Of a stretch of DNA of 64,000 nucleotides, positions 16,445 through 27,924 are shown one piece after another. Source of the DNA: Roseobacter sp. GTDB taxonomy: Bacteria; Pseudomonadota; Alphaproteobacteria; Rhodobacterales; Rhodobacteraceae. The DNA lies in contig JADFAE010000016.1 in assembly GCA_015665415.1 (NCBI GenBank), positions 62,001-126,000 on the forward strand, read 5' to 3'. The notes beneath the pieces are model-generated. The model had not been told where the DNA came from and ran no database searches. It saw nothing but the letters and a program-made list of their open reading frames with translations. Position 1 is the first letter of the stretch; every line of letters begins with the position of its first letter. The translations under genes were made by a program, and so were the position numbers.

Positions 16445-17041
16445 TCAAGCTGTGGCTGCGATGTGGCGATCCACCATACGCTGCACCATCGGGGCAAAAT
16501 GCCAATAATCCGGGGTCTCCATGTCGGCACGTTTGCCCGCCTCATCGAGATAGCGCACCGCGATGATTTCCTTCAGGTTCGGATTGGCCTCAAATTCCGC
16601 CACCTCGTCGGCATTCATCGGGCCGCCCTGCAGCTCTAGCGTATGTACCGAAGCTGGCGAAAGCCGTTTGAAATACTCAGGCTTGGTGGCACAGAGATAG
16701 CGTTTGGCTGCAACGTGATAGCGACAGCAATCGGTGATCACGCTGGGAAAGAACTGCTCCAGCACCTCAGCACCTGCATCCTCGTGGTGGCGATCCTCGG
16801 TGTCATCGGGATGATAGGTGCCAAACTCCGAGGTGAAATGGCCGATGTCATGCAGCAGCGCCCCAATGATGATCTCCTCCGGCTGGCCATTTTGTTCGGC
16901 AATGGTCGCCCCCTGCAACATATGCTCGCCCATGGTCACGGGTTCGCCCAGGTATTCCTCACCGCCGCGGCGTTCAAAGATCGATCCCAGGAACGCGACG
17001 ATATTGCTGTGATCGAGGCTGGCGATATCCGGCTTGCTCAT
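16445..17041 (-). CDS. tmpB: TmpB-like HD-domain mixed-valent diiron oxygenase
   Basis: 198-residue PhnZ-type HD oxygenase. In the characterised Leisingera system TmpB cleaves the C-P bond of 1-hydroxy-2-(trimethylamino)ethylphosphonate, giving glycine betaine and phosphate. H40, H64-D65 (ALLHDIGHF) and the His of HHEDAGAE fit the diiron ligands. Y30 and E33 of YLGE correspond to the mobile Tyr/Glu pair of PhnZ (YIGE in the recalled sequence). The start at 17041 follows GGAAGGATGATCAG, which overlaps the tmpA stop, so the two are co-translated four bases apart. It would commonly be annotated only as an HD-domain protein. Confidence 0.85.
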   Translation of the reverse strand: MSKPDIASLDHSNIVAFLGSIFERRGGEEYLGEPVTMGEHMLQGATIAEQNGQPEEIIIGALLHDIGHFTSEFGTYHPDDTEDRHHEDAGAEVLEQFFPSVITDCCRYHVAAKRYLCATKPEYFKRLSPASVHTLELQGGPMNADEVAEFEANPNLKEIIAVRYLDEAGKRADMETPDYWHFAPMVQRMVDRHIAATA

Positions 17042-17045
17042 CTGA

Positions 17046-18179
17046 TCATCCTTCCTGTTGCGCCGAGAGCGCCGCAAATTTTGAATTCAGCCCGTCCTTG
17101 TCAGCGTAGCATCCCTGCAGCCAACGCGTGCCGGTTCCGGAGTAGGCCTTGCGCGCATGCAGCACCCGGGTGTTGTCGACCACAAAACCTTCGCCGGGCT
17201 CCAGGCGGAAGGTTACTTCCATTGCCTCGTCGTCGATGATCTCGCCCAGGCGACGATAGGCCGCGTAATAGGTGTCCATGTCACCAAAGGGCACATCCTT
17301 GACAGCTGCCAGCGAGCGGTTGTTGAACCGCACCCCGATCAGCTCGCCATCGGGGGCCAGCTCGATCATCGGGCGGCGCGAACGCAGGCAGGTCTCTGCG
17401 TCACCGGCATATTCAAACCGGGCGCAGTATTTGGCCAGCACGTCAAAATACTCTTCATTCTCGGCGCGCAGACGCAGCGCGGCCGCAAACCCATCCACCA
17501 CCATGTTTTCACCACCGGCAGCAGAACTTTCGAGACAGTAAAGCACCTGGATCGAGGGCACCGGATCGCGGTAGGGATTGTCGGTATGGGCCTGTAGCCC
17601 CAGCCCGGTAAAGGCCAGATTGGTTGGGTTCACCTCGGTGCGGACCTCAAAGTGGCGGCCATAGTTGGTTTCGCGCACATAGCCAAAGAGATCGACCACC
17701 TTGAACAGCGACCCATCTTCAAGCGGGCCATTCTCGATCTTGCCAAAGCCATATCGGGTCACCTTGCCGAGCCAATCGCGCAGGGCATCGCCGCCCTTGG
17801 CCAGCTGTTGGAAATCGCCGATTGGCACATCCGACATCAGGCTGCTGTTCCACGGTGTGGTCTCATCGGGCAGCCAGCCCGCCTCTGCGCGCGCAACCTT
17901 GTCATATGCGTTGGCCGCCAGCCAGCTGAGGTCAAACTCGACGGTCTTGTCTTCGGGCGCAAAGCTGACGCGCAGCGTCTCTCCTGACAGCTCAACCGCT
18001 GCCAGCTTGGTTTCTGCCGGAATATCCCGCAGTGCAACCAGACGCTGGCCATTGCCCGGCGCACGGGTCTGATCGTCCTGGGCATTGTCACGCAGCCAGA
18101 TGGCATGGAACCGGCGTGGCTGCCCTTCAAGGTCAAGGGTCAGAAAGTCGCCATTCGGGGAGAGGGATACGGAAGTCAT
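17046..18179 (-). CDS. tmpA: TmpA-like 2-(trimethylamino)ethylphosphonate dioxygenase
   Basis: 377-residue Fe(II)/2-oxoglutarate oxygenase of the gamma-butyrobetaine hydroxylase family. The N-terminal GBBH domain is present (RFHAIWLRDNAQDDQTR, residues 23-39). The iron triad is H198-x-D200 (AHTDNPYRDPVPS) and probably H341 (DNTRVLHARKA). Adjacency to the PhnZ-like TmpB, rather than to carnitine genes, favours hydroxylation of 2-(trimethylamino)ethylphosphonate at C1 over gamma-butyrobetaine hydroxylation. The alternative cannot be excluded by reading alone. It is the first gene of a two-gene unit divergent from a LysR regulator. Confidence 0.83.
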   Translation of the reverse strand: MTSVSLSPNGDFLTLDLEGQPRRFHAIWLRDNAQDDQTRAPGNGQRLVALRDIPAETKLAAVELSGETLRVSFAPEDKTVEFDLSWLAANAYDKVARAEAGWLPDETTPWNSSLMSDVPIGDFQQLAKGGDALRDWLGKVTRYGFGKIENGPLEDGSLFKVVDLFGYVRETNYGRHFEVRTEVNPTNLAFTGLGLQAHTDNPYRDPVPSIQVLYCLESSAAGGENMVVDGFAAALRLRAENEEYFDVLAKYCARFEYAGDAETCLRSRRPMIELAPDGELIGVRFNNRSLAAVKDVPFGDMDTYYAAYRRLGEIIDDEAMEVTFRLEPGEGFVVDNTRVLHARKAYSGTGTRWLQGCYADKDGLNSKFAALSAQQEG

Positions 18180-18279: not shown

Positions 18280-19152
18280 ATGCATAACTCCAAGATGGGT
18301 GACTCCAAATTCGACAGCATTCCGCTGGAATGGGTGCGCGCCTTTGAAACCACCGCGCGGCTGGGCAGCTTTACCGCCGCCGCCCGCGAAACCGGGTTGA
18401 CCCAGCCCGCAATCAGCCAGCGCATCGCCAATCTGGAACACCAGTTGGGGGCACAACTGTTTGTGCGCAAAACCCGTGCCATTCACCTCACCACCGAAGG
18501 CGAAGCCTGGTTGCCGCATGTGCAGGCGTCGCTGAACGCGCTGCGCGACAGTTCAGAAGCGCTGTTCGGGGTCGGGCGCAACAAGATCGTGATTTCCGCC
18601 TCCTCCTCTATCGTGCAGCACTGGATCACGCCGCGTCTGCCCGCGCTGCTGGCGCAAAGCGGCGCTGAGATCAGTATCAACACCATGGTTCTGGCCGGGG
18701 ATGCGGCCGAAGACGACGGCACCGTCAAGATCCGCTATGGTGCGGGCGATTGGCCGGGGCTATACAAGGCCCCACTGTTTGAAGAGCGCATTGCCCCCTT
18801 GGCCTCCCCAGCCTTGCTGAAAACCACTGCAGATTGGCGTACATTGCCGCGTCTGTCCGTATCCGGCCCCCGCCCCAGCTGGCGCGATTGGCGCGAGTTC
18901 AGCGGTCAGGTCACCACCTCCCCCACCGCGCTGCGCTTTGATACTTTTGCCTCAGCCCTCGCGGCGGCGCGTGCCGGGTTGGGCGTGTTGCTTGGCTCCC
19001 TGCCGCTGTGTCAACAGGATCTGGACAGTGGCGCGTTGGAGCGGATCAGCGAGGCCGTGATGCCCCATCACGAGAGCTATTGGCTGCTGGCCTCCAAAGA
19101 CCGCATCTCACGGCGGCAATGGGACGTGCTGCGCGCATCTTTGGCTGGATAG
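18280..19152 (+). CDS. LysR-type regulator, probable regulator of tmpAB
   Basis: 290-residue LTTR. The winged helix-turn-helix (LEWVRAFETTARLGSFTAAA, then ISQRIANLEHQLG) lies at about residues 13-70, and the rest is a GcvA-like effector domain. It is transcribed away from tmpA across a 100-base gap, the usual arrangement for an LTTR and its target. The ATG at 18280 is embedded in a perfect palindrome TTATGCATAA (18278-18287), which might serve autoregulation. The effector (phosphonate or glycine betaine) is unknown. Confidence 0.85.
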   Translation: MHNSKMGDSKFDSIPLEWVRAFETTARLGSFTAAARETGLTQPAISQRIANLEHQLGAQLFVRKTRAIHLTTEGEAWLPHVQASLNALRDSSEALFGVGRNKIVISASSSIVQHWITPRLPALLAQSGAEISINTMVLAGDAAEDDGTVKIRYGAGDWPGLYKAPLFEERIAPLASPALLKTTADWRTLPRLSVSGPRPSWRDWREFSGQVTTSPTALRFDTFASALAAARAGLGVLLGSLPLCQQDLDSGALERISEAVMPHHESYWLLASKDRISRRQWDVLRASLAG

Positions 19153-19489: not shown

Positions 19490-22400
19490 CTAGTTTTTTG
19501 TTTGAGCTCCAAACCCACCACCTCCAGGAGTCTTAATGATGAAGGTATCACCCGAAACCAGCTCCACTTGATCGTTCCCCTGCAATAACTCAACTCGACC
19601 ATCCGCACGTAGAACAGAGTTTTCACCTGTTGATCCAGACGCGCCGCCATGGGCCCCTTGTGGAGGAACCATTCGATGCGAACTCAAGGTGGTGACGGTC
19701 ATCGCATCATTGAAATACAAGCGCCGTACGATGCCATTGCCACCAATGAATTGACCGTCACCACCCGAACCTTGGCGAATGGAAAATTCCTCCACCCTAA
19801 CGGGAAACCGCGTCTCAAGTACTTCGGGGTCCGTCATACGGGTATTTGTCATATGGCTATGAACGGCGCTGGTCCCGTCGAAGCCATCACCGGCTCCAGT
19901 CCCACCACAAATCGTCTCGTAGTTTTGGTAAGTTTCATTTCCATAGACAAAGTTGTTCATGGTCCCTTGGCTGCCCGCTATCACGCCGAGGGCGCCATAC
20001 AGCGCGTCAGCAATGGATTGGCTGACTTCTGTATTGCCCGAGATGACAGCCGCCGGAGATTTCGGATTGATCATTGTGCCTTCTGGCACAATCAGGTTCA
20101 GCGGCTTCAGACACCCTTCGTTCATAGGGATATCGCGGCCGACCAAAGTACGGAACACGTAAAGAACAACTGCACGGCAAATGGCCATTGGCGCGTTGTA
20201 GTTCAGCGGATTTTGCGCAGATGTTCCGGTGAAATCAATCGTTGCAGAGCGGTTCTCTTTGTCAACGCGGATCTCCGCGACGATCTTTGAGCCACTGTCC
20301 ATCGGATAGCTGAACTTGCCGTTTTTGAGCACATCCAGAACACGGCGCACGCTTTCCTCGGCATTGGCCTGCACATGGCCCATGTAGGCATGCACTGCTT
20401 TGATCCCAAATTGGCGGGTGATCTTTTGGAGCTCGGAAACACCAGTCGCATTGGCCGCTATCTGCGCCGCCAAATCCGCAATGTTCTGGTTGATGTTCCG
20501 GCACGGATAGGACCCAGACCCCAAAAGCGTGCGGGTTTCTGCTTCACGCAGATGCCCTTGGTCCACAAGCAGGAAGTTGTCGATCACCACGCCTTCTTCT
20601 TCAATCGTTCGACTATCTGGCGGCGCCGATCCTGGTGTTTTGCCACCAATATCAGCGTGGTGTCCACGAGAGGCGACGGTAAAGAGAATGCCTTTCCCGT
20701 CTGCATCAAATACTGGAGTGATGACGGTGACGTCTGGCAAATGCGTTCCACCATTAAACGGATTGTTCATCATGAACACGTCACCGGGGCGAATCTTGCC
20801 CTCGTTTTCACGTAGTACCGTGCGCACGCTTTCCGACATGGAGCCCAAATGCACCGGCACATGCGGTGCATTGGCAACCAGATCGCCGTTCTGGTCAAAG
20901 ATTGCACAGGAGAAATCCAGTCGCTCTTTGATGTTCACAGAGTAGGCGGTATTTGCCAGAGTGGCCCCCATTTGTTCGGCGATGGACATGAAGAGGTTGT
21001 TGAAGACCTCAAGCATGACGGGGTCAACCTGGGTGCCAATCGCTTCGGCGCGTTCAAGCGGAACTGTTCTTTCAAGGATCAAGTTGCCGCCTTTGGCGCA
21101 GGTCGCACGCCACCCAGGCTCAACAACGTTTGTTCCTGTTGGCTCTGTTAAAATCGCTGGCCCTTCAACGGCTTGTCCAATGGCAAGGCTTGCGCGGTCA
21201 ACCAGCGGCACGTCCTGCCATTTCCCGCCAAAACAGACCGACACTGGCGTCTCATCGATTGATGTGTCGCCCGGATCATCTAGACTCACACCTTCGCCAG
21301 TTTGACCGATGGCTTCCACGACAAGAACATCAATGATCAGATCACCTGTGTTTGGTGTGAAACCAAACCTCTGAAGATGCGCTGTAACAAAGGCGGCTTC
21401 CATTTCAACAGCGGATCCGAAGTCCACTTCGATACTTTGTTGCGCGTCGCGCGGGCGGATTTGGACCCGTTTGGAAATGACGACTTCGGCCTCATCGATA
21501 CCTTGATCTTTGACCTCATCCCCCGCGATTTGGGCCATCTCGTCCAAAGCCGCGAGCGCGCCTGTATCACTTAAAGGCTTTTCAAATTGCTGCTCGCGCA
21601 TCGCTCTGACATCAGCAAGCCCCATGCCAAAGGCAGACAATACCCCGGCAAAGGGGTGAATAAAGATGCTTTCCATGCCCAAGGCGTCAGCCACGAGACA
21701 CGCGTGCTGCCCGCCGGCACCCCCAAAACAGTTCATGGTGTATTTGGTAACGTCGTAGCCGCGCTGGACGCTGATTTTTTTGATGGCGTTGGCCATGTTC
21801 TCAACAGCGATCCGCAAGAAGCCCTCGGCGAGCTCTTCCGGGGTTTTGCCATCGCCGATCTTGGCGGCAAGCTCCTCGAATTTCTGACGCACAATATCTT
21901 TGTCGAGCGGCTGATCGGCATTTGGGCCGAAAACATGCGGGAAGTGATCCGGGTTCAGTTTGCCCAAGAGCACATTGCAGTCGGTAACAGTCAGTTCGCC
22001 GCCTCGGCGATAGGCCGCCGGACCCGGGTTGGCGCCTGCGCTTTCTGGACCGACCTGCATCCGTCCGTCGCGATAGGACAAAATCGAACCGCCACCTGCT
22101 GCTACTGTGTGGATCGACATCATCGGCGCGCGCATACGTACGCCTGCGACTTCTGTCTCAAATGAACGCTCAAACTCTCCGGCATAATGGCACACGTCGG
22201 TAGACGTGCCGCCCATGTCAAAGCCAATGAGCTTGTCAAAACCCAACTCACTGGCAGATCGAACCATGCCAACCACACCGCCCGCAGGGCCCGATAGGAT
22301 CGCATCACGACCATGGAACAGTCGCGCATCGGTGAGACCACCGTTTGATTGCATGAACATCAACCGCTCACACCCACCTGTATGGGCGCCAAGCGCATTG

Positions 22401-23071
22401 GCGACCTGATCCACATAGCGGCGCAGAATTGGGGACAGATATGCATCCACAACCGCCGTATCACCGCGTCCGACCAGTTTGATCAAGGGGCTGACGAGGT
22501 GACTCAGCGAAATCTGGGAAAACCCGGACTGCTGCGCCATCTGACCCAGTTGTTTTTCATGGTCCGGAAATTTGTAGCTGTGCATCAAAGCGATCGCGAT
22601 GGACCGGTAGCCCTGGTCATAAGCTTTGGACAAAGCCGTACGAGCCGCAGAGGTATCCAGAGTGGCGACCACGTTCCCATCCGCATCAATGCGCTCTTCG
22701 ACCTCGACCACATTTTCATAAAGCAGCTCTGGCAACTCAATGTTCAGATCAAAAAGTTTCGGTCGGTTTTGGTAACCAATGCGAAGAAGGTCTTTCATTC
22801 CTTTGGTAATGAAAAGAACCGTTCGATCGCCTTTGCGTTCCAGCAGGGCGTTGGTCGCAACGGTTGTGCCCATCTTTACCGCTTCGATGAGCCCCCTCGG
22901 CACCGCTGTGTCAGGTTTCAGATCCAGCAGTTCGCGAATACCGTGCACGGCCGCGTCTTTGTAGACTTCCGGGTTTTCTGACAAAAGCTTGCGTGTCTTT
23001 AGCTCTCCGGATGGTGATTTCGCTACGATGTCGGTGAATGTGCCACCGCGATCGACCCAAAACTGCCACAT
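19490..23071 (-). CDS. ATP-dependent 5-oxoprolinase / hydantoinase, fused HyuA-HyuB
   Basis: 1193 residues, the length of full 5-oxoprolinase, which opens 5-oxoproline to glutamate using ATP. The HyuA half (1 to about 680) has [26 protein letters not shown] and [20 protein letters not shown]. The HyuB half has [30 protein letters not shown] and [11 protein letters not shown] hydantoinase acting on hydantoins cannot be ruled out by motif alone. A DUF1445 (D-glutamate cyclase) protein and a TRAP transporter in the same operon make 5-oxoproline the best substrate guess. It is last in a six-gene leftward unit. Base composition is visibly lower in GC than neighbouring core genes. Confidence 0.85.
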
Positions 23072-23145
23072 AGATATAGCTCCTCTGTTTGCAGGCAGGG
23101 CCTGCAGTCATTCAAATTAGGGTGTTGGTGTTTGGCGCGCTGGTC

Positions 23146-24429
23146 TTAGTAGACCAAAGACGGCAGCCACAGTGCGAGTTGCGGGAAGGCAAGCAACAGC
23201 GCCAACATGACGAACATCGTGATAACGAATGGGATCGCGCCTCGGATGACGTCAATCATAGGTCCGCCTTTGCGGATGCCTTGCACCACGTAGAGGTTGA
23301 TCCCAATCGGAGGTGTGATGAGGGCCGTTTCCAGGAGGACCATCAACAGGATACCAAACCAGACAGGATCAAAGCCAAGCGCCACAACGATTGGCGTGAT
23401 CAGCGGCGCCATGGTCAGTAGCATCGACAGCGTTTCCATAAAGCACCCGATTAGGATCAATACAGCAACGATCATGAACATGGTTTGCATCGGGCTCCAC
23501 CCAAGGCCAGTTACAAAATCGGTCAGGGCTTGGGTCAGACCGATGATCGAAAGAACGAAGTTCAGGAAGACAGCCGCAATGATGATCAGCATGATCATGG
23601 CAGTGGTGCGCATGGTGCCTTCGATGGCTTGACGCATCATGTCGATGGACATCTTCCCGTTCATTACCGCAAGCCCCATTGAGGCAACGACACCCAAGGC
23701 GGCGGCCTCTGTTGGCGTCGCCAGGCCGGCATAGATGGACCCAACAACAACTACGAAGATACCCAGCGGTGGGATCAATGCAGGCAGCGCACGCAACCGT
23801 TCTGACCAGGTATGACGCAGCTGTTCGCCGCCCCATTCAGGTTTCAACAGGCAGGCGACAACAACGGTAGCCATGAAGAGCAGTGCCAACAGAAAGCCCG
23901 GCAGGAAACCAGCCAGATAGAGCTCTGGCACGGATGTATTGGTCAGCAGCCCATAGAGGATCAGGTTGATGGATGGCGGAATGAGGATGCCCAATGTACC
24001 GCCCGCTGCGACTGTGCCCAGGAACAGGCTTTCATTGTAGCCCCGTTTCTTGATCTGCGGTACGGCCACGGTTCCGATGGTGGCTGCGGTCGCCACCGAG
24101 GATCCAGAGGTTGCTGCGAACAAAGCGGAGGAGCCGATGTTTGAGTGCATCAACCCGCCTGGCAGCCAGCCCAGCCATTTCACGATTCCGTCGTACATGC
24201 GTTCAGTGATGCCGGCCCGCAAGAGGACCTCACCCATCATCACAAACATCGGGATCGCAACAAGGAGGAAGTCCGTGCTGGTCTGCCAGGCCATGTCGGA
24301 AATCGCGCGATGAAGCGGCATCGCGCTGTCTGTCCACTGAAGGATGAGGCCAAGCCAACCAAGAGACGCAGCGATTGGAACGGCAAGGCCGATCAGCGCC
24401 AGGAGAATGAGAAGTGTCTTGATCAACAT
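23146..24429 (-). CDS. dctM: TRAP transporter large permease, DctM type
   Basis: 427-residue integral membrane subunit of a tripartite ATP-independent periplasmic transporter. It has about 12 hydrophobic segments. GEVLLRAGITERMYD and LFAATSGSSVATAATIG are typical DctM motifs, and GTLGILIPPSINLILYG is the family signature. The start at 24429 (MLIKTLLILLALIG) lies two bases past the dctQ stop; 51 upstream codons overlap dctQ and are rejected. Substrate is inferred from the operon as an acidic amino acid or 5-oxoproline. Confidence 0.93.
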   Translation of the reverse strand: MLIKTLLILLALIGLAVPIAASLGWLGLILQWTDSAMPLHRAISDMAWQTSTDFLLVAIPMFVMMGEVLLRAGITERMYDGIVKWLGWLPGGLMHSNIGSSALFAATSGSSVATAATIGTVAVPQIKKRGYNESLFLGTVAAGGTLGILIPPSINLILYGLLTNTSVPELYLAGFLPGFLLALLFMATVVVACLLKPEWGGEQLRHTWSERLRALPALIPPLGIFVVVVGSIYAGLATPTEAAALGVVASMGLAVMNGKMSIDMMRQAIEGTMRTTAMIMLIIIAAVFLNFVLSIIGLTQALTDFVTGLGWSPMQTMFMIVAVLILIGCFMETLSMLLTMAPLITPIVVALGFDPVWFGILLMVLLETALITPPIGINLYVVQGIRKGGPMIDVIRGAIPFVITMFVMLALLLAFPQLALWLPSLVY

Positions 24430-24431
24430 GG

Positions 24432-24995
24432 TTATACCGTTTCGTCTTCGATTTGTTCGTCGAGGGATTTGACGCCGATGAGGTTTTGCACCCCGGCTTC
24501 GTCGCCTCGGAAGTGCTGGCGAATGGCGACCAAGGCGATCAACACGCCTGAGAACACAAAGAACATCCAACCGAGCAGCCAAGGAATTTGTGGAATTGCA
24601 AGCGGGACACGCATTGGCGTGATGGAGCGAGAGCCATTGTCGAGCGTATCGCCCACCATGCCCCAGACCATGACGACGATCACAAGGGCAAAACCGGTCA
24701 ACAAAAGAAGGCCCAGCAAGTTGATATAGGGGTGCAGCGCCTTGGGGATCGCACCCAGCAGTGCATCAACCCGGATATGCGCCCGCTCAAACAGCGCGAA
24801 AGACAGCGCCAAGGCCGTGGCGACCCCGAAAGCATAGCCTGATATTTCATCCGCGCCGCCAAGCGAAACATTGAACAATTTGCGCAAAAACACTTCGAGC
24901 GTGACCAGGAAGGCTGAGAGCACGATGAGTGCGCCGCCAAGCCAGGTCAGCCAAAGGCTGCATGTGCGGGCGCCGGTGAAAAGCTTATCTAACAT
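24432..24995 (-). CDS. dctQ: TRAP transporter small permease, DctQ type
   Basis: 187-residue subunit with four hydrophobic segments. The family pattern is visible: an early FLVTLEVFLRKLFNVSLGGADEISGYAF segment (R and E/D between helices 1 and 2), then FALFERAHIRVDALLG. It partners DctM in the membrane. The gap to dctP is about 70 bases, the largest internal gap in the transporter genes. Confidence 0.9.
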   Translation of the reverse strand: MLDKLFTGARTCSLWLTWLGGALIVLSAFLVTLEVFLRKLFNVSLGGADEISGYAFGVATALALSFALFERAHIRVDALLGAIPKALHPYINLLGLLLLTGFALVIVVMVWGMVGDTLDNGSRSITPMRVPLAIPQIPWLLGWMFFVFSGVLIALVAIRQHFRGDEAGVQNLIGVKSLDEQIEDETV

Positions 24996-25066
24996 CTCGG
25001 GGACCTCTTAGTCAGTTGCGGTGGGGCGGGTGGTTTCTTCCCGCCCCCCTGTGATGGCTGGGTTGG

Positions 25067-26104
25067 TTATTTTGCTTCGGCAGTCAGACCAAGAATTGGA
25101 CCAACGGTGTTGTTCCAGTTTGCCGCGCATTCTTCACCACAGCGTTCCGCCCACCGTGCGAGAACAACATTGGCGGCAATCTGATCACGCGCGGCAAGGT
25201 CTTCCGCTGTTGGCTCAACCAGAACCATGGAGCCAGGCTCACCGACTTCACATGCACCACCAGTGATGCAGGAAATAGCCACATCGTCTTCCTTCGCGGT
25301 TTCAGCCCACATGGCCTCATTCAACGACGCGATTTCGGACTGGAGCAAAGCTTGCTGATCTGCGGACAGGCTGTTCCACTTGTCCATATTCATCGCGCCA
25401 AAGGCGAGCCCCCAGCCGACACGCAGGGTGTATGCATGCGTCGCGACCTGGCTCCACTTTGCGGTGTAAGCAGACATGGTGCCGGTGATGGCGCAGTCCA
25501 CAACGCCTTTTTCCAGCGCTGGGATCACTTCTGAGAAGGCAACGGTCACTGACGTGCCGCCTACGCCTTCGACAAAGTCACCGAGAGTGGTGGAATATAC
25601 GCGGATTTTCTTGCCATCCAGATCGGCAATGCCATTCACTTCTCCGTTGCACCACAGCGTCTGGCTTGGGAACGGATACAGCATCAAAAGCTTCGCATTG
25701 TAGATATCTGCAAAGGCAGTTTCGAGCGTGCCGAAATAGGCGTCTGAAACTGCGCGTTGTGTGCCGATGTCTTGCGTCAGTGACGACAGGTCAGCCCCTT
25801 CAAAGATCGCGTTTTCAGCGGCTACGTATCCAGGCAGACCAAATGCGAAATCAAAAACGCCATTTTTGACCATTCGCATAATCTCAAAGCCTTTCAGGCC
25901 CAGACCAGATTGCGACTGGATCTTTCCGACGATCTCCCCACCGGACACTTCGTTGAGACGCTGGTTGAAGAATGGCTCTTCGTGTTTCTGATAATTGGTC
26001 AGGCTGGACCAAGTACCAACCGCATTCAGTACAACTGGACCATCCGCCACGGCGGACGTCGCCATTACGGCCAGTGCGCCTATCGCTGTTGTTAGTTTTT
26101 TCAT
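25067..26104 (-). CDS. dctP: TRAP transporter solute-binding protein, DctP type
   Basis: 345-residue periplasmic binding protein. A signal peptide occupies residues 1-20 ([20 protein letters not shown]). The ligand-contact region [19 protein letters not shown] carries the conserved Arg that salt-bridges a substrate carboxylate, so an organic or amino acid is expected. Its ATG overlaps the stop of the DUF1445 gene (ATGA), coupling uptake to the cyclase. Cysteines near the C-terminus ([21 protein letters not shown]) may form periplasmic disulfides. Confidence 0.92.
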
Positions 26105-26946
26105 TGGTTCTCTCCGTGTTGGGTTGGATTTTTGTAAATTGTTGTCTCTGCATCTTCTGCGATGTCAGTGATGAGCATGTGCCCAGGCGCATGTGTGATG
26201 CAGAAGGTTGGGCGCGCGGCTTGGATGACATTTTGCGGCGTGACGCCACAGGCCCAGAAAACCGGTATTTCATCAGGTTTGATGTCCACAGCGTCCCCGT
26301 AGTCAGGGCGGTTGATGTCTGAAATGCCAATTGCGCAAGGGTCGCCGATCGCAATGGGTGCGCCATGCGCTTGGGGGTACTTCGAGCTGATCGAAATTGC
26401 GTCCTCAAGATCACGTTCTTTTAAGGGGCGCATAGACACGACCATCTGGCCAACAAAAGGCCCGGACGGAACGAGGTCAATATTTGTCCGATACATCGGA
26501 ACATTTCGACCTGTCTCAATATGGCGCATCGGGATGCCAGCGCGAATAAAGGCGTTTTCGAAAGTGAACGAACATCCCAGCGCAACCGTGACCAAGGTAT
26601 CGTCCCAATAGTCAGAGATATCGGTGAGCTCTTTGGTTAAAACCCCATCGCGAAAAATTCGGTAACGCGGAACGTCGGTTCGAATGTCGATATCGCGCCC
26701 CAAGGTCGGCAGCATCGGGTCGCCTGTGTCGCTTACCCCGACAATCGGGCAAGGTTTGGGGTTGCGTTGACAAAACCGCAGGAAGTCCAGTGCGAACTCT
26801 TCGGGAATAATGGCAAGATTGCACTGGAGCTTCCCTGGCGCGAGGCCGGCTGTGTTCGCATCGTAGCGACTTGCGCGAATGCGTTTGCGAATGTCTTCAC
26901 TCGACAGGAGCGAAGCATCGACGATTGTCTCATTCTGGGTAGACAT
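26101..26946 (-). CDS. DUF1445 / D-glutamate-cyclase family protein
   Basis: 281-residue protein of the DUF1445 ('putative hydro-lyase') family. The mammalian mitochondrial relative DGLUCY converts D-glutamate to 5-oxo-D-proline. Family segments visible are [33 protein letters not shown], the Gly/Cys-containing [15 protein letters not shown], and [14 protein letters not shown] followed by [12 protein letters not shown]. The start at 26946 follows AAGGGGCCCAAA. It is the first enzyme gene after the regulator and couples to dctP. In Bacillus subtilis a DUF1445 gene (ycsI) also sits among 5-oxoprolinase genes, which supports a role in 5-oxoproline/D-glutamate metabolism. Confidence 0.83.
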
Positions 26947-27007
26947 TTTGGGCCCCTTGTTTGGTTGCAAAAGCATCACACAACAGGAGCAATTCAATCA
27001 AATTATC

Positions 27008-27033
27008 ATTTTCTATCACCTTTGATAGAAAAT
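27008..27033. promoter_or_regulatory. Perfect 11-base inverted repeat, likely LysR operator
   Basis: ATTTTCTATCA and TGATAGAAAAT are separated by CCTT. The site is 62 bases upstream of the DUF1445 start and just past the stop of the LysR gene. Its AT-rich stem with no T-run favours an operator over a terminator. Its core CTATC-N6-GATAG recurs at 58161-58176 beside another LysR gene. Confidence 0.6.
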
Positions 27034-27039
27034 TTGGAA

Positions 27040-27924
27040 TTAATTTTGGTGAGTTCGATGCCAGTCGATCGCAATCTCACGCGCTATTTCTGCACCGTTT
27101 TCAACAAGAAGGCTGCGTGGTTCGGCTAGGTAGGAGGCTGTGAACTCCAGAGGTGGAGGAATAAAGCCCGGATCAAATTCCTCGATTTCATTTGCTTCCA
27201 AGTGTCGTACTGCAAGGACACGGGGGTAAGGTCCAACAGCGATTCCCGCTGCAATCATCTTAAGACTTGCTGACAGGGATGCTGACGAAAACACACGCAA
27301 TTTGGGTCCCACGCGGCGGGCCAATTCTGAGGTGAGCTCTCGATACGGGCGTGTCTGACTGGAGTATGAAATGATCGGTATTTCCGACAGGTCAATCGGC
27401 CCCAGTTGTTTGTCTTTGTACCAGTGAAGGTCAAACTGAGGTAGCGCCACATTTTTCACGGAATATTCTGAAATCGGCCCCATTAGGAAAGCCAAGTCGA
27501 GGCGTCGTTCCAATATTGCAGCGCGCAGATTAAGCGAAATATCAACTGTCAAATCGATATTCACACGTGGAAACTTCACACTGAAAGCTTGCAGGAACAA
27601 CGGGAGCCAAGCTTGGGCGATGGTTTCAGACGCACCGATACGAAAGAGGCCCTCAGTCTCGGCGGGATTGGCGACTCGGTGCTTAATTTCTTCTTCAACA
27701 TAGAGCAGCTGTTCAGCATAGCCCAAAAGCTGCTGGCCCTGTTTCGTGAGCACCAAATCGCCGGGTCCGCGCTCAAACAGCTTTGCATCCAATTCATCTT
27801 CCAGGTTGGATATCCGGGTAGAGACGGCAGGTTGCGAAAGATGCAGGCGGTCAGAGGCTTTGCGAAAGCCTCCCAGCCGGGCAACCCATAGAAATGTGCG
27901 AAGTTGTTCAAAGGTCATGCCCAT
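27040..27924 (-). CDS. LysR-type regulator of the oxoprolinase/TRAP operon
   Basis: 294-residue LTTR with its helix-turn-helix at residues 4-65 (FEQLRTFLWVARLGGFRKAS; VSTRISNLEDELDAKLFERG). Unusually it is not divergent but lies upstream of, and in the same direction as, its presumed targets, separated by 93 bases containing a perfect inverted repeat. It could act on both its own promoter (right of 27924) and an internal promoter before the cyclase gene. Base composition matches the rest of this segment. Confidence 0.88.
   Translation of the reverse strand: MGMTFEQLRTFLWVARLGGFRKASDRLHLSQPAVSTRISNLEDELDAKLFERGPGDLVLTKQGQQLLGYAEQLLYVEEEIKHRVANPAETEGLFRIGASETIAQAWLPLFLQAFSVKFPRVNIDLTVDISLNLRAAILERRLDLAFLMGPISEYSVKNVALPQFDLHWYKDKQLGPIDLSEIPIISYSSQTRPYRELTSELARRVGPKLRVFSSASLSASLKMIAAGIAVGPYPRVLAVRHLEANEIEEFDPGFIPPPLEFTASYLAEPRSLLVENGAEIAREIAIDWHRTHQN

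Follow-up and report, generated by a model that had tools for sequence, protein, structure and literature searches.

A recurrent DUF1445–TRAP–oxoprolinase operon of Roseobacter that probably serves 5-oxoproline catabolism

In Bordetella pertussis, two receptors of tripartite ATP-independent periplasmic (TRAP) transporters, DctP6 and DctP7, have been brought together with a eukaryotic-type oxoprolinase in a proposed route of 5-oxoproline (pyroglutamate) uptake (Rucktooa 2007, as cited in PMC13274462, PMC5812351 and PMC12344293). Both receptors (2PFY, 2PFZ) were crystallised with 5-oxoproline, for which DctP7 has a dissociation constant (KD) of 0.3 uM (PMC13274462), and their genes reportedly have a eukaryotic-type 5-oxoprolinase gene close by (PMC13274462, PMC5812351). 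The pxpTABC genes of Corynebacterium glutamicum likewise combine uptake, regulation and ATP-driven opening of 5-oxoproline, using an NRAMP/APC-type transporter, a GntR regulator and an unrelated oxoprolinase, PxpABC (PMC13274462). Vertebrates fuse a DUF1445 domain to DUF4392 in DGLUCY (PMC5132392); the mouse protein, which has both domains, was reported to turn D-glutamate into 5-oxo-D-proline and to lack glutamate racemase activity (PMC5339696). Caprolactamase, CapAB, has HyuA and HyuB domains in separate subunits, with catalytic residues tested by mutation (ATP motifs D11, D295 and GxxPGP; metal site D41, H99, D102 and H124; PMC8453981). Here we describe a six-gene operon from Roseobacter sp. 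(family Rhodobacteraceae) in which a LysR regulator, a DUF1445 protein, a TRAP transporter and a fused HyuA-HyuB enzyme, OplA, stand together at positions 19490–27924 of the 64,000-nt stretch of DNA that was analysed, hereafter the window (assembly GCA_015665415.1, contig JADFAE010000016.1, positions 62,001 to 126,000).

All six reading frames are on the minus strand, and the frame list and the Pfam and NCBIfam profiles gave them the identities that a first-pass annotation had proposed for six co-directional genes. The unit starts with the gene of the LysR-family regulator (27040–27924; PF00126, 74.9 bits; PF03466, 84.8), followed by that of the DUF1445 protein (26101–26946; 281 residues), which scored 221.7 bits with PF07286 (cut-off 25) and 409 bits with NCBIfam PRK05463 (cut-off 324). 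Its listed frame spans 26101–26997, and the start is most likely ATG 26946, with AAGGGG just upstream, rather than TTG 26997. The transporter comprises the solute receptor DctP (25067–26104; PF03480, 87.3; NCBIfam TRAP_S1, over cut-off), the small permease DctQ (24432–24995; PF04290, 71.2) and the large permease DctM (23146–24429; PF06808, 314.9; TIGR00786, 343.7 bits with a cut-off of 268.45), whose start was read by eye as ATG 24429. The last gene encodes OplA (19490–23071; 1193 residues), an ATP-dependent lactamase and probable 5-oxoprolinase by its Pfam domains and conserved residues. An ATGA overlap (26101–26104) joins the DUF1445 gene to dctP and 2 nt separate dctQ from dctM, and thus the genes were read as one transcription unit. 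We take ycsI to be the DUF1445 gene of Bacillus subtilis, where a control search gave one PF07286 match. ycsI lies in the pxp operon (PMC10448178), which resembles the window's operon in uptake and ATP-driven opening of 5-oxoproline, but carries an NRAMP/APC-type transporter and the unrelated PxpABC. No description of a DUF1445-TRAP-OplA operon was found in the open-licence literature.

We favour, with moderate confidence, the reading that the operon is a probably acquired, LysR-controlled catabolic unit for 5-oxoproline. The substrates named are those that we infer: DctPQM would import 5-oxoproline or a very close relative, and OplA, judging by family, motifs and context, would open 5-oxo-L-proline to L-glutamate with ATP. 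The DUF1445 protein would convert an imported form that is closed to OplA into a usable one; the likeliest such form is 5-oxo-D-proline, an identity that is less likely than not when taken on its own. LysR would act at a palindrome that precedes the DUF1445 gene. The module is real and recurrent, a new arrangement of known parts in which the DUF1445 reaction is bracketed, and most likely serves 5-oxoproline.

The evidence that carries this reading comes from the neighbourhoods (9.5 kb) of DUF1445 genes, compared in 160 distinct loci after removal of the duplicates L106, L107 and L172. In the window's family, 83 of the 85 DUF1445 places over the cut-off were used (L002–L084; the two omitted were the window's own place and one fragment, in genome G008; G274 fell below the cut-off); outside the family, we took the best 80 of at least 593 matches in named genomes, ranked by likeness to the window's DUF1445. 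TRAP genes lie near DUF1445 in 116 of these loci, and the order LysR-DUF1445-DctPQM recurs widely in the family, so the gene order is not due to chance. An oxoprolinase of either type is present in 79 of the 160 loci, OplA-type in 38 and PxpBC(A) in 41, and the two never occur together (0/160; Fisher 2.8e-6, uncorrected for kinship). The count of 38 is a loose one. It takes in the proteins of L039 and L075–L077, which at 28–32% identity are probably other hydantoinases, as well as the L063 fragment; leaving out these five loci gives 33. Under a strict criterion, the 83 family loci contain OplA in 13, Pxp in 30 and both in none. DUF1445 and OplA lie within 10 kb of each other in 14 of the 26 family genomes that have both, among the OplA matches listed (down to about 1372 bits), with about 0.13 expected. 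Since OplA and PxpBC(A) take the same place without ever co-occurring, and the ATP-dependent 5-oxoprolinase activity of PxpABC is well established (PMC13274462), this interchange points to a role in 5-oxoproline metabolism.

The partner enzyme has been exchanged repeatedly. In a phylogeny of 160 DUF1445 proteins, the window's among them, the partner label (39 OplA, 40 Pxp) changes 10 times, with at least 4 changes forced, that is, required by well-supported branches; the exchanges are clustered by kinship, and DUF1445 keeps its place while an unrelated ring-opening enzyme swaps in. Indeed, one TRAP type accompanies both oxoprolinases: transporters close to the window's stand with OplA in L008, L043 and L054 (DctP 85–87% identical) and with PxpBC in L033 (DctP 83%, DctM 89%) and L051 (80% and 89%). 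The linkage of DUF1445 to a fused HyuAB, which the first-pass annotation had predicted for other genomes, is thus present in both counts, loose and strict, and its further idea that the association outlasts replacement of the enzyme agrees with the tree; the DUF1445-PxpABC link that it attributed to Bacillus was seen in Bacillaceae (L157, L175) and extends to the 30 Pxp-bearing loci of the window's own family. PxpB and PxpC occur without PxpA in 20 of those 30; counted over the family loci with PxpB and PxpC beside DUF1445 (L004–L069), PxpA is missing from the stretch examined in 20 of 28.

The second line of evidence comes from the receptors. The window has DctP, DctQ and DctM, and its DctP keeps, by motif alignment only, the conserved receptor arginine, at residue 168 within a KKIRVYS motif. 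In ten loci from beta- and other alphaproteobacteria (L120, L131, L140, L145, L158, L159, L162, L170, L173 and L182), the DctP encoded directly after DUF1445 is 49–53% identical to whichever of 2PFZ and 2PFY is closer, and OplA lies nearby in 8 of the 10. In five Achromobacter loci (L114, L117, L121, L122 and L124), a DctP 87–90% identical to 2PFZ is encoded near DUF1445, with OplA visible in three within the stretch examined. Divergent TRAP transporters of the DctP6/7 type were also found in 11 of 20 OplA loci picked for having no DUF1445 nearby. By analogy with these receptors, 5-oxoproline is our best guess for the ligand of the window's DctP. As compared to the Bordetella genes, the window adds DUF1445 and LysR in a tight unit, and its DctP belongs to a distant subfamily.

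OplA itself fuses in one chain the domains Hydant_A_N (201.6), Hydantoinase_A (378.8) and Hydantoinase_B (645.7), which differs from the separate subunits of CapAB. In an alignment reading, OplA retains every residue that was mutated in caprolactamase (D7, D285, D719, H777, D780 and H804), and GANPGP at 346 is the counterpart of GxxPGP. The protein presumably resembles mammalian OPLAH. In a tree of 66 OplA proteins (26 linked to DUF1445 and 40 unlinked), from which the partial L041, L117, L120, L124 and L156 and the duplicate L107 were omitted, the linkage label changes 14 times, at least 9 of them forced; L099, whose contig begins there, carries no label in this count and is unlinked in the group table. 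Linked and unlinked proteins are interleaved, and L016, which is linked, is sister to L086, which is unlinked and has a DctP6/7-type TRAP. We therefore rejected a D-specific OplA, as the linked proteins form no separate clade, and OplA beside DUF1445 is most likely an ordinary enzyme. The stereochemical puzzle raised in the first-pass annotation, namely that a D-configured product would meet an enzyme type preferring the L form, is narrowed to the extent that a special D-accepting OplA is unlikely.

Regulation of the unit is suggested by the gap between lysR and the DUF1445 gene, where two perfectly matching 11-nt arms around 4 central nt form an inverted repeat at 27008–27033. Its 24-bp pattern, TTTTCTATCA-N4-TGATAGAAAA (27009–27032, no strand), occurs once in the window and zero times in 100 shuffles. 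Relatives of the window's LysR (74–89% identical) stand ahead of DUF1445 in several loci of the family. We compared 16 gaps, the window's and those of 15 loci with a LysR at least 58% identical, using a pattern derived from the window itself. The full pattern is well kept in part of the loci only (3 of the 15 have no more than 3 mismatches), and a shorter core was counted instead: TATCA-N4-TGATA with at most one mismatch is present in 13 of the 16 gaps (the window's own plus 12 from the 15 other loci), whereas 200 approximate dinucleotide shuffles averaged 3.1 such gaps and never exceeded 9. Since the core is conserved, LysR would probably act here, and an operator is the natural reading of this candidate site.

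Several points weigh against the 5-oxoproline reading. No oxoprolinase lies within 9.5 kb of DUF1445 in 81 of the 160 loci, many of which have DUF2848 with or without an amidase. The partner changes on the DUF1445 tree (shuffled mean, 26.6) and the linkage changes on the OplA tree (shuffled mean, 20.8) are both fewer than in shuffled labels, a clustering by kinship which means that the loci are not independent. The window's DctP cannot be taken for a DctP6/DctP7 receptor, an identity that was rejected at 22–25% identity to 2PFY and 2PFZ, with 4N4U outscoring both; none of the 83 family loci has a DctP6/7-type receptor in the slot after DUF1445, which lowers our confidence, and such a receptor was found in other positions in two of them (L012, L037). 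The Achromobacter loci also carry, beside DUF2848 and an amidase, a DctP of the window's type, and the presence of two DctP types together suggests different, related ligands. The substrates of HyuAB relatives include hydantoins and other lactams (PMC8453981), and the OplA comparison set contained no proven 5-oxoprolinase sequence of this type. Finally, the genome has a complete pxpBCA elsewhere, so that OplA would be its second oxoprolinase; the description of the operon as self-contained is fair for the locus and does not extend to the genome. We also dropped the idea that DUF1445 depends on an oxoprolinase at the genome level: one is present in all 75 of the DUF1445 genomes examined (PxpB in 65, OplA matches in the other 10; PxpB was searched in 75 of the family's 83 DUF1445 genomes), but PxpB is nearly universal in genomes chosen for having no DUF1445 or OplA match (59 of 63, and 52 of 53 of the near-complete ones).

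Within the 5-oxoproline reading, a special case would make DUF1445 a cofactor-independent, two-cysteine 5-oxoproline racemase that serves OplA or PxpABC, with DUF4392 as the cyclase of DGLUCY; we regard this as possible but rather unlikely. C142 is conserved in 159 and C250 in all of the 160 aligned DUF1445 proteins (C125 and C233 when numbered from ATG 26946), and in the predicted model (predicted local distance difference test, pLDDT, 89.2) each has a strand on one side and a helix on the other. Sequence alignment puts the equivalent cysteines at chain positions 124/232 of 2PIF and 125/233 of 3DB9, counts that may differ from the residue numbering of those entries. The position of the gene is also suggestive, in that DUF1445 stands between a source of cyclic substrate, TRAP or DUF4392, and an oxoprolinase. 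DUF4392 lies within 9.5 kb of DUF1445 in 10 loci (L071, L135, L136, L142, L148, L149, L152, L165, L166 and L178), directly beside it in 8, and TRAP genes are near in just 1 of the 10 (Fisher 3.7e-5, uncorrected for kinship). On one reading, DUF4392 would make a cyclic substrate within the cell and TRAP would import one, with DUF1445 acting before the oxoprolinase in either case. Known oxoprolinases prefer the L form, which a racemase would fit, and OplA is not specialised on its tree. However, the reported product of mouse DGLUCY, which contains DUF1445, is 5-oxo-D-proline (PMC5339696), the cysteines could be structural or metal-binding, and no racemase fold was present among 50 listed of 274 Foldseek matches to the model. 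An internal duplication was rejected: a half-versus-half profile match aligns the cysteine motifs, but its score of 15.4 falls short of the highest among 30 column shuffles, 19.2. Neither pyroglutamate racemase nor oxoproline racemase was mentioned in the open-licence literature among the matches listed. The fuller proposal, in which DUF1445 is an unrecognised racemase feeding 5-oxo-D-proline to two unrelated L-specific oxoprolinases and the Pfam name is wrong, DUF4392 being the cyclase, is doubtful as a whole.

The neighbouring of DUF1445 and DUF4392 in bacteria mirrors the vertebrate fusion, and three of these ten loci also have PxpABC.

The pathway of the first-pass annotation, in which TRAP imports D-glutamate, DUF1445 alone cyclises it and a D-tolerant OplA opens 5-oxo-D-proline, is unlikely. 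It draws on the DGLUCY reaction (PMC5339696) and on the association of DUF1445 with DUF4392, by fusion in vertebrates (PMC5132392) and by proximity in the ten bacterial loci. Pfam calls DUF1445 D-glutamate cyclase, a name that comes from DGLUCY, and NCBIfam calls it a putative hydro-lyase; its Protein Data Bank relatives are 2PIF and 3DB9, from sequence search and model match. The published assay, however, used DGLUCY with its DUF4392 domain, the available text of that report does not assign the cyclase domain (PMC5339696), and no activity for the DUF1445 domain by itself was found in the open-licence literature. The window's genome gave no DUF4392 (PF14336) match, and therefore lacks the two-domain pair of DGLUCY; among the 79 of the family's 83 DUF1445 genomes searched, DUF4392 is present in 4 and absent from 75. 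The interleaved OplA tree speaks against a D-tolerant enzyme, and ring closure followed by ATP-paid opening would be wasteful given glutamate racemase. In other families, the receptors in this slot whose ligand is known take pyroglutamate. What stands of the first-pass interpretation is a 5-oxoproline uptake and degradation operon, whose chemistry agrees with the Pxp interchange and with these receptors; D-glutamate import and cyclisation by DUF1445 alone find no support here.

It is also quite unlikely that the operon breaks down another cyclic amide, e.g. a hydantoin or lactam. Hydantoins and caprolactam are substrates of HyuAB relatives (PMC8453981), OplA's top PDB match carries the label N-methylhydantoinase, and in Bradyrhizobium (L177) DUF1445 lies, by eye, beside an M20-type hydrolase-like gene, together with LysR and a branched-chain-amino-acid-type ATP-binding cassette transporter, with no oxoprolinase seen. 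The interchange with PxpBC(A) and the same-slot DctP6/7 receptors of other families nevertheless indicate 5-oxoproline, and OplA scores far below cut-off with the caprolactamase and acetophenone carboxylase models (NCBIfam CapA, 331.5 with a cut-off of 1000). A non-enzymatic DUF1445, sensing a ligand or assisting the oxoprolinase, is improbable: after its own family, the sole strong fold match among those listed is the nitrogen repressor-like protein MJ0159 (3NEK; expectation value 3.3e-7, template modelling score 0.37/0.47), whose kind senses 2-oxoglutarate and so fits a glutamate-sized ligand, but the alignment holds many invariant polar residues besides the two cysteines, no other Pfam domain and thus no DNA-binding part is seen, and vertebrate DUF1445 forms part of an enzyme.

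The unit was probably acquired. Its GC content is 54.3%, with 61.3% and 60.7% on its two sides, and it is the lowest-GC 8.4-kb stretch of the window (in steps of 500). GC at third codon positions (GC3) is 0.51–0.66 in five operon genes (dctQ was not in the list) and mostly 0.70–0.79 in the longer neighbouring genes. PF07286 is patchily spread, in 83 of 394 family genomes, which together with the low GC and GC3 suggests acquisition. In the corresponding locus of a genome of the same genus (L033 of G340), the TRAP type is the same, PxpBCA replaces OplA and LysR is just 46% identical to the window's; the operon thus looks like a mosaic. Upstream of it are a TetR gene and, by eye, acyl-CoA ligase, thioesterase and enoyl-CoA hydratase-like genes. 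Downstream lie a GcvA-like LysR gene (18280–19152) and, beyond it, TmpB and TmpA (16445–18179; NCBIfam, over cut-off), which are 2-trimethylaminoethylphosphonate degradation genes.

Other gene groups around DUF1445 were noted in passing. DUF2848 (PF11010) is near it in 44 of the 160 loci (among them L004–L007, L009, L010, L025, L031, L114, L141, L161 and L183), with an amidase (PF01425) in part of these and an M24 peptidase in a few; it probably belongs to the same or a related pathway, and no mention of it by that name was found in the open-licence literature. A Rhizobium locus (L167) has a compact DUF1445-transporter-OplA arrangement, the transporter being called by eye a member of the major facilitator superfamily. 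In two family loci (L002, L003), DUF1445 is flanked by a PxpA gene and a PxpC-type gene, and next comes a gene that by eye resembles one for a biotin carboxylase. The OplA-like fragment of L063 (260 residues, 54% identical) stands beside DUF1445 while a full OplA is on another contig of the same genome, and is possibly a decaying copy.

The interchange of oxoprolinases and the alternation of TRAP and DUF4392 suggest that the DUF1445 reaction is the step before the opening of the 5-oxoproline ring, and the occurrence of the same DUF1445 beside two unrelated ring-opening enzymes makes its function directly testable. Resolving this reaction would also hint at the half of human DGLUCY that acts on D-glutamate. 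For the bacterial family to which the window belongs, the operon is a candidate locus for 5-oxoproline scavenging.

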